Source: a virus. From it: 28,744 nucleotides of DNA. Where the stretch lies: the IMG/VR virus record IMGVR_UViG_3300031825_000061, positions 1 through 28,744 of that record. One strand, written 5' to 3'. The notes beneath the pieces are model-generated. The model had not been told where the DNA came from, made no database searches, and worked only from the letters and a program-made list of their open reading frames with translations. Shown here piece after piece: positions 23,101 to 27,407 of the stretch; the stretch's first letter is position 1; every line of letters begins with the position of its first letter. A program made the translations under genes and the position numbers.

Positions 23101-23340
23101 ATGGCAACCACCCCCTACGATCCCCTGAAGGACACCCTGCAGGGGCAGCAACCAGCTGCGCCGTCCACCACCGGCATCGTCTCCAGCGCGATGCTTTCGC
23201 CGGCCGCCGCACAGCCCGCGGCCGCCGAGCCCAGGTCCACCGCCATCGTGGGCGCGCAGTCGGCGCAGATGGAAAACCCCACGCCCTGGAACGTGACCGA
23301 CGACCAGACGGTGGAGGGCCGCATCAACCGCATCATCATC
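23101..23340 (+). pseudogene. 5' fragment of a late phage gene, cut at a module junction
   Basis: The first 80 codons from ATG 23101, with GAAGGAC upstream, look like real phage coding sequence (MATTPYDPLKDTLQGQQ and NPTPWNVTDDQTVEGRINRI). Phage late proteins with this 'WNV...QTVxGRIN' segment usually go on with a long helical domain. Here the frame leaves that course at about 23335 and runs on to 23631 only as the reverse complement of the KilA-N gene, giving an unlikely Arg/Cys-rich tail. I read it as truncated by insertion or replacement of the moron block. Similarity is from memory of the family, not from alignment. Confidence 0.6.
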
Positions 23341-24037
23341 ACAAGCGGAGGGGTGCGGATGTCGCATTCTCGACGCAAGGCGTGTTGGTCGCCCTCCACT
23401 CACGCGCGAGCGTATCGAGCAACGATTTGCGCTTGGTGTACTCCATACCCTGTGCGAGCAGCAGCGTATTGCGCACCTCGAGGGCGGCGAGCAGGTCAAG
23501 CTCCGGTATGCTCAACGCGTCCCGATCGAGGCCGCAGAACTCGCCCTGGAGGGCCCAGTTCACCAGCTTGGCCTCGTTCATGTAGTGGTGGACCCCGCAA
23601 GCTTTCCCCGTGTGTTCACGGGCTTCCTTGAGCATCTGGGACATCACCTTATACGAAGCGGCCGCCTCGTGCCGCAGACGGTGCCAGTCCTGGCTTCCGC
23701 GGATCAGCTCGTCGATCTGGAGGTCGCACCAGACGCCGAAGTCCTCGTCCAACCAGCGCGCGAACGGAACCGCGAGTTTCGGATGAAACCACGTGCCATC
23801 GCGCCGGTGGCGTCCACCGCGGATGACCCTTAGAAGCGAGATTTTCTCGCTTCTAAGCTGTCGACATAGAGCGCTTAAATAGTCATCCGTTCCGGGGAGC
23901 CGCAGCCAGTCATTCGGCTTTCTGCCGAATCTCGCTGCAGCCTCCGTCGCGTTGAACCAGCCGTCGTCGCGGTAGGTGATCGCGTGCCCCTCGTACTTGA
24001 GAACGATGTGGCGATCCGCTTGTGACTTCTCTAGCAC
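23339..24037 (-). CDS. KilA-N domain protein (phage regulator / antirepressor type)
   Basis: A 232-residue leftward protein starting at GTG 24037, eight bases after AAGGGGG. The KilA-N domain covers residues about 10-115: GWFNATEAAARFGRKPNDWL, then RRDGTWFHPKLAVPFARWLD and FGVWCDLQIDELIRG. The C-terminal half is helical (ELDLLAALEVRNTLLLAQGM). KilA-N proteins bind DNA or phage repressors and often act as antirepressors or growth-arrest factors. It is transcribed against the late operon. Upstream are an inverted repeat at 24072-24091 and a possible LexA-like box at 24235-24254. The gene contains a perfect 13-bp inverted repeat at codons for RSEKIS. Confidence 0.88.
   Translation of the reverse strand: MLEKSQADRHIVLKYEGHAITYRDDGWFNATEAAARFGRKPNDWLRLPGTDDYLSALCRQLRSEKISLLRVIRGGRHRRDGTWFHPKLAVPFARWLDEDFGVWCDLQIDELIRGSQDWHRLRHEAAASYKVMSQMLKEAREHTGKACGVHHYMNEAKLVNWALQGEFCGLDRDALSIPELDLLAALEVRNTLLLAQGMEYTKRKSLLDTLAREWRATNTPCVENATSAPLRL
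23829..23857. repeat. perfect 13-bp inverted repeat inside the KilA-N gene
   Basis: CTTAGAAGCGAGA (23829-23841) and TCTCGCTTCTAAG (23845-23857) are exact inverses with a TTT spacer. The match by chance in a window this size is unlikely (four to the thirteenth is about 67 million). It could form a strong RNA hairpin in the leftward message or be a protein-binding palindrome. Confidence 0.9.
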
Positions 24038-26005: not shown

Positions 26006-26017
26006 AATGAAATCAAA

Positions 26018-26050
26018 GGGTTAGCTCTCACAAGGAGCTAACCCTTTTTC
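26018..26050 (+). terminator. tRNA-distal rho-independent terminator
   Basis: GGGTTAGCTC (26018-26027) and GAGCTAACCC (26035-26044) form a perfect 10-bp stem with loop TCACAAG, followed by TTTTTC. It lies 13 bases after the tRNA 3' end and is probably the original chromosomal terminator of the tRNA gene. Confidence 0.92.
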
Positions 26051-26468: not shown

Positions 26469-27407
26469 ATGATGTTCTGGGTGGGTACGACAGACACGCG
26501 CTGGTTCGAGTTCCTGGCACCGCGTCACCTGGACGAGGTGAACTTCTGGCAGCCATCGGTGCGCCCTGCATTCGAGAACGCGCCCAGCGGCATGCCGTTC
26601 GTGTTCAAGGTGAAGCGTCCCCACAACCACATTGCAGGCGCCGGCTACTTCATCACTCGCAGCGTGCTGCCGCTGGACCTGGCGTGGGAGATCTTTGGGC
26701 AGAAGAACGGCGCGGCTTCGCTCGCAGAACTGCGGGAGCTTCTGGGGCCGCTAGCCGGCCGCGGCACGCCGCTCACCCAGATCACTTGCCAGGTCATCGC
26801 CAACCCCGTCTTCTTCGAACCACGAGACTGGCTGCCCGATCCACCGGGCTGGTCGTCCAACATCGTGCGCGGCAAGATGTACCGAACCGAGGAGGCCGAC
26901 GGCGCCACGATCTGGGCGCATGTGCTGCCGCTGCTCGCCCGTGGCCTCGAAGCCCAGGCCGAGGCCTCGGATAGCGGCGCCCGGGTCGTGAACGAGCCGG
27001 CGGCGCGGTACGGTGAGCCCATCCTGATGCGGCCCCGGCTCGGCCAGGGCTCCTTCCGCGTGGTCGTCACCGAGGCCTACAACCGCAAGTGTGCCATCAC
27101 CGGCGAAAGCACCTTGTTGGCACTGGAGGCCGCGCACATCGTGCCCTACGCCGAGGAAGGTGCCCATGACGTGCGCAACGGCCTGCTGCTGCGGGCCGAC
27201 TTCCACCGCTTGTTCGATGCCGGCCTGGTGTCGGTGACGCCCGACATGACGATCCGCGTCAGCCCGCGCATCCGCGAAGCATGGTTCAACGGCAAGGCGT
27301 ACTACCGGATGGATGGCCAGCCGCTGACCGTCACGCCGACCCGGCCGGAGTACCGCCCCGATCCCGACCGCCTGCAATGGCACCTCAAGAACCGGTTTCA
27401 GGCATGA
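26469..27407 (+). CDS. HNH restriction-type endonuclease with N-terminal recognition domain
   Basis: A 312-residue protein (ATG 26469 or 26472). The C-terminal HNH nuclease is clear: YNRKCAITGES (204-214), AAHIVPYAEE with H223, RNGLLL with N237, and ADFHRLFDAGL with H246. The N-terminal half (HLDEVNFWQPS, GMPFVFKVKRPHNHIAGAGY, LPLDLAWEIFGQKN) is the domain seen before HNH in predicted restriction endonucleases of the COG3440 type, where it is thought to read DNA or its modification. No methylase is adjacent, so a modification-dependent or other defence nuclease is likely. Its TGA overlaps the start of a MazG-like gene. Confidence 0.86.
   Translation: MMFWVGTTDTRWFEFLAPRHLDEVNFWQPSVRPAFENAPSGMPFVFKVKRPHNHIAGAGYFITRSVLPLDLAWEIFGQKNGAASLAELRELLGPLAGRGTPLTQITCQVIANPVFFEPRDWLPDPPGWSSNIVRGKMYRTEEADGATIWAHVLPLLARGLEAQAEASDSGARVVNEPAARYGEPILMRPRLGQGSFRVVVTEAYNRKCAITGESTLLALEAAHIVPYAEEGAHDVRNGLLLRADFHRLFDAGLVSVTPDMTIRVSPRIREAWFNGKAYYRMDGQPLTVTPTRPEYRPDPDRLQWHLKNRFQA

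Follow-up and report, generated by a model that had tools for sequence, protein, structure and literature searches.

Among the closest described systems, some have the DNA site of a protein within its own gene. The lambda ori is found inside gene O, pac sites are located inside small terminase genes and, according to the P1 annotation, oriL is inside repL. These are origins or packaging sites, whereas the KilA-N genes described here carry a single hypervariable palindrome within the region that codes for the DNA-binding domain, and this in a very divergent family. Another case is Roi, a DNA-binding protein of phage HK022, which reportedly (the work is attributed to Clerget and Boccard, in 1996) binds a site inside its own gene, next to an IHF site. 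The KilA-N genes would share this arrangement. However, as read from its translation, Roi appears to combine a Rha-like domain at the N-terminus with a KilAC-like C-terminus, rather than having a KilA-N domain. The HK022 ORF that we take to be roi carries no palindrome above score 6, so Roi was discarded as a direct homologue and is considered only as an analogy. Operators inside coding sequence are also known, for example lac O2 and gal OI, but these belong to regulated genes and their reader is an unrelated repressor. As in the KilA-N genes, such a position is compatible with blocking or looping, although a KilA-N gene has one site, apparently only in the gene of its reader. Finally, the fungal APSES/SBF/MBF domain (Mbp1, PCG2) is a homologous KilA-N-type winged helix, although its sites are short, ACGCGT-type and located in promoters. 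Knowledge of the sequences recognised by KilA-N domains outside this SBF/APSES branch, and of their function, was described as scant in a 2016 paper (PMC4862756). In the open-access literature, we found no account of a palindrome inside KilA-N genes.

The window analysed here is a stretch of viral DNA of 28,744 nucleotides. It contains a KilA-N domain gene on the minus strand (23339..24037), which starts with GTG and encodes 232 aa. The coding region of the domain (Pfam PF04383, residues 16-113) is located at 23699..23992, also on the minus strand, and the match covers most of the model (positions 6-106 of 107; E 4.9e-17) with 62.2 bits, above the curated cut-off of 23.8. The ANT domain PF03374 (KilAC) was not detected in the C-terminus at E up to 1, unlike in P1 KilA, whose C-terminus has it. 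Inside this gene, the first-pass annotation had reported a perfect 13-bp inverted repeat with a three-T centre, and the repeat is indeed present at 23829..23857 (no strand assigned): the arms CTTAGAAGCGAGA (23829-23841) and TCTCGCTTCTAAG (23845-23857) are complementary in 13/13 pairs and flank the TTT centre (23842-23844). The centre lies about 194 nt into the gene, and the palindrome corresponds to codons L61-R70 (LRSEKISLLR). A chance origin, judged unlikely in that annotation, also seems so after shuffling. The window contains two perfect 13-bp inverted repeats with a spacer of 0-10, whereas 40 dinucleotide-shuffled versions contain 0.025 on average, and the score of 13 was reached in 0/100 synonymous-codon shuffles of the gene (mean 4.6). 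The second repeat, AAAGGGTTAGCTC / GAGCTAACCCTTT with a 7-nt spacer, is at 26015-26047. No sigma-70-like promoter was seen upstream of the KilA-N gene within the window.

Concerning the neighbourhood, a tail gene (window 23101-23361, plus strand; compared with locus L225, 2515-3687) has a broken 3' end, and the KilA-N cassette is located there in antisense orientation. The tail-gene homology (TPWNVTDDQTVEGRINRII) ends at the cassette, while the intact relative goes on with GLIQQARTRGMETANARGLLNSS, and the tail gene appears to have been truncated by insertion or recombination. Beside the KilA-N gene there is an ORF matching the pyocin activator PrtN / phage excisionase (24144-24623, minus strand), and an HNH endonuclease ORF (PF13391) is found at 26469-27407 on the plus strand.

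A query with the window KilA-N protein alone gave no related loci in viral contigs, and the exact window arms (AGAAGCGAGANNNTCTCGCTTCT) are absent from every other IMG/VR contig. The nearest homologue is encoded in a Polaromonas contig (65% aa identity) and retains 10/13 pairs of the window palindrome. Across it, nearly all codons of the two genes are the same (AGA AGC GAG AAA ATC TCG, and CTA). The rare AGA codon, which had been taken as a hint that the palindrome is kept for its own sake, is compatible with that idea, and the homologue uses this codon too. Over codons 62-71, identical residues share the same codon in 8/8 cases, versus 57/126 elsewhere in the two genes (Fisher p 0.002), the count being 7/8 when codons 61-70 are taken. 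The first-pass annotation would have been refuted by close homologues with the protein but without the palindrome, and this is not the case: the closest one keeps most of it, and distant ones have a different but equally good palindrome, although in some relatives it is weak or absent.

For a wider survey, homologues from IMG/VR, phage records, a Polaromonas-centred order sample and a phylum sample by Pfam family were aligned to one profile, seeded from this KilA-N family, which yielded 106 non-redundant KilA-N ORFs. The results revealed that KilA-N genes of phages, prophages and one insertion sequence usually carry a palindrome of about 25 bp within the stretch coding for their own DNA-binding domain. 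An inverted repeat with a score of at least 7 was present just ahead of the wing of the winged helix in 74/106 ORFs, P1 kilA among them, but in only 10/289 control windows of equal width from the same genes; for a score of at least 9 the values were 47/106 and 0/289, all of these being counts of related sequences and thus non-independent trials. Similarly, scores of at least 10 were reached by 32/106 KilA-N ORFs versus 13/377 other ORFs on the same loci (Fisher 1e-13). When the best palindrome of the whole ORF was considered, it fell 34-85 nt ahead of the conserved Trp codon in 65/106, and 100-125 nt ahead of it in 14 further ORFs, mostly from a subfamily with an insertion there. The 32/106 ORFs with a score below 7 include HK97/HK022, where the palindrome is degenerate, and a long-insertion subfamily (L016, L020, L022, L025, L026).

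P1 kilA gives the family its name, and its palindrome (GAAACTATGCA-GAAT-TGCATAGTTTC) has a score of 11, while the runner-up in the gene scores 5. Its local codon-shuffle p is only 0.12 because the amino acids there permit little codon choice. Since the palindrome also shapes the amino acids, shuffling codons cannot settle the matter for a single gene. At the same codons, other phages have other repeats: GAAGTCCGA-AAA-TCGGACTTC in Pseudomonas phage U6, ATACGGGA-AAA-TCCCGTAT in SPN3UB and, with one mismatch, AAATACCTCG-GATT-CGAGGGATTT in D3.

The way in which these repeats change indicates that selection acts on the nucleic acid. Across the KilA-N set, dyad symmetry is above chance and is kept through compensatory changes in both arms, as would be expected of an autoregulatory operator, while the arm sequences vary widely among genes. 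At pair positions 3-12 from the centre, complementarity is mostly 80-100% and each position shows 2-4 types of pair; beyond ±13, leaving aside the insertion subfamily, the symmetry drops toward chance. Within that subfamily the arms also co-vary (AATTCCCTC/GAGGGAATT, AAACCTCTC/GAGAGGTTT, AAAGGTCTC/GAGACCTTT and AATTCCATC/GATGGAATT). Moreover, the palindrome centre is found in every reading-frame phase, and an identical 23-mer, AAATACGGGAAAATCCCGTATTT, is translated in two different frames, giving KYGKIPYL in L031 and NTGKSRIL in L118. The domains of these two genes share 51% protein identity and 57% DNA identity, and their longest exact match, 21 nt as aligned, is the palindrome. Hence, the DNA word is preserved although the encoded residues differ. 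The idea that the palindrome is kept for its own sake is thus supported well beyond one gene, as homologues keep its position while letters and residues change. All IMG/VR stretches with the 23-mer pattern AAATACGGGAAWWTCCCGTATTT lie within KilA-N ORFs (6/6). A looser pattern, AAATACCCGN6CGGGTATTT, was rejected as diagnostic, since its IMG/VR matches are mostly outside KilA-N genes, with a handful inside KilA-N ORFs; the sites outside have GC-rich symmetric centres and a terminator-like look.

Regarding the role of the palindrome, an operator, an mRNA hairpin and a recombination or nicking site had been proposed. The first of these, in the form of a site for the gene's own product, is the one favoured here, the hairpin is less likely and nothing positive was found for recombination or nicking. 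A hairpin in the mRNA, or in an antisense RNA, would be kept for controlling KilA-N translation, mRNA stability or cleavage by RNase. In the window, the region folds with z = -3, stems with loops of 3-5 nt are common in the KilA-N set, and a KilA-N orthologous group serves as an example in a survey of conserved viral mRNA structures (PMC6563262). The stems are kept, but many centres are symmetric: in even-centred sites the symmetry often reaches the middle (CGAATTCG, GGGAATTCCC), and the innermost pairs are complementary in 11/15 and 9/15 cluster representatives, which are modest counts. As no single strand can pair these middle bases, double-stranded DNA is favoured over a hairpin. Furthermore, the mismatches in the coding-strand stems (GT 4, TG 0, AC 3, CA 2, other 8) show no excess of G-U over A-C, small as these counts are, and the span of about 25 bp, with outer ends at about ±12 bp, is constant, whereas the unpaired centre can have anything from 0 to 7 nt. 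Rfam covariance models gave no match up to E = 1. Altogether, these features favour a dsDNA site for a dimer, and we consider the hairpin unlikely.

Each palindrome was searched with up to 3 mismatches, and no second copy of the window palindrome was found within the window. P1 has one copy (50122-50145), and nine phage records have one each. In genome G022 there are 3 copies for 3 copies of the KilA-N gene, and in G437 there are 5 for 5, so that one copy per gene and none outside KilA-N genes were found in any genome searched. The palindrome is not a regulon operator, as its copy number equals that of the KilA-N gene, and a multi-site operator was discarded for this reason. The five copies in G437 lie in a repeat of about 1.92 kb, consisting of a transposase, which from its sequence we take to be IS1595/ISXO2-like, followed by the KilA-N gene as a passenger with a perfect 28-bp palindrome (L229, 1428-3350; copies L230-L232). 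Four are near-identical full copies (99.7-99.9%), and another (L228) has an internal deletion. Since these copies ride in an insertion sequence, the palindrome belongs to the gene and not to the phages.

The same data bear on whether the site could be read by another phage or host protein. The KilA-N protein is a putative reader, which leaves room for another. Nevertheless, the arms have diverged along with the gene, be it in phages, prophages or an insertion sequence, the genomes searched hold no further copies, and the gene that carries the site itself encodes a DNA-binding domain, all of which makes a different reader improbable.

A role in cis in recombination or DNA mobility, as a cruciform, nicking or resolution site that helps the cassettes to move, seems more doubtful still. 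KilA-N genes occur as isolated cassettes at many phage positions, one copy rides in the IS1595-like element, and the copies of HK75 (L226, 1414-1785) and HK633 (L227, 1489-1719) are truncated remnants that diverge from HK97 30-45 nt past the palindrome. However, the palindrome is in the middle of the gene and not at the cassette ends, the variety of arms is too wide for a single recombinase, and the IS copies are co-linear across it. Template switching can keep the arms of a quasi-palindrome identical by correction. That such correction, without any function, keeps generating palindromes in a tolerant loop, a segment that is hypervariable in protein, is hardly credible against the single position across a very wide gene set, the constant span of about 25 bp, the shared outer AAAT and central GAA, the rarity of palindromes in control windows and other ORFs, and the 23-bp word kept across frames.

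The AlphaFold model of the window protein (pLDDT 88) offers a structural context. The palindrome codons fall at the end of a predicted winged-helix helix (residues 48-61; 23855..23896, minus strand), the turn after it and strand 69-72, the first of the wing (residues 69-84, with a second strand at 81-84; 23786..23833, minus strand), so that one arm overlaps the end of the helix and the other the start of the wing. The domain resembles the winged helices of Mbp1 (1bm8, Z 8.0) and of the PCG2-DNA complex (4ux5, Z 7.7), values close to the level of caution, where a shared arrangement could be enough to explain them. DNA is read by the wing in PCG2 (PMC4862756). No KilA-N relatives were found in the PDB by sequence. 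The whole chain of the model resembles dimeric DdrC (Z 9.9, with a high rmsd of 11.6), a likeness suggesting that Deinococcus DdrC may combine a KilA-N-type winged helix with a helical bundle. For the window protein, a winged-helix dimer on a palindrome of about 25 bp would be plausible.

Hence, the palindrome is probably a gene-private dsDNA site of about 25 bp, bound most likely by the encoded KilA-N winged-helix protein as a dimer. Its position, symmetry, covariation, the DNA word kept across frames and the lack of further copies in the genomes searched support this explanation, and the KilA-N protein is the putative reader. According to this mechanism, the protein would bind its own gene about 150-220 bp downstream of the start and, once there is sufficient protein, could block RNA polymerase as a roadblock. 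The outcome would most likely be negative autoregulation, a feedback that would move with the gene. Lying within the coding sequence of the DNA-binding domain, the site would accompany the gene into any phage position or insertion sequence, whatever the upstream promoter, and for the same reason site and reader would be inseparable by most recombination events. Overproduced P1 KilA kills the host (PMC8201110), and this toxicity would be a reason for tight self-limitation in the case of P1.

A broader proposal, for which we see the case as evenly balanced, is that KilA-N genes are self-addressed: each would carry an evolving recognition palindrome of its own within the region that codes for its DNA-binding domain, site and reader would be inherited together, and for hundreds of KilA-N proteins that are still uncharacterised the DNA specificity could be read from the gene. 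KilA-N domains are found in viruses that infect bacteria and in those of eukaryotes. Should the palindrome prove to be the cognate site, it would give at once a candidate target for most proteobacterial members of the family, including P1 KilA. If true, the KilA-N genes would also exemplify, in general form, base pairs that specify both a regulatory site and the protein that reads it, an arrangement that makes clear sense for mobile cassettes.
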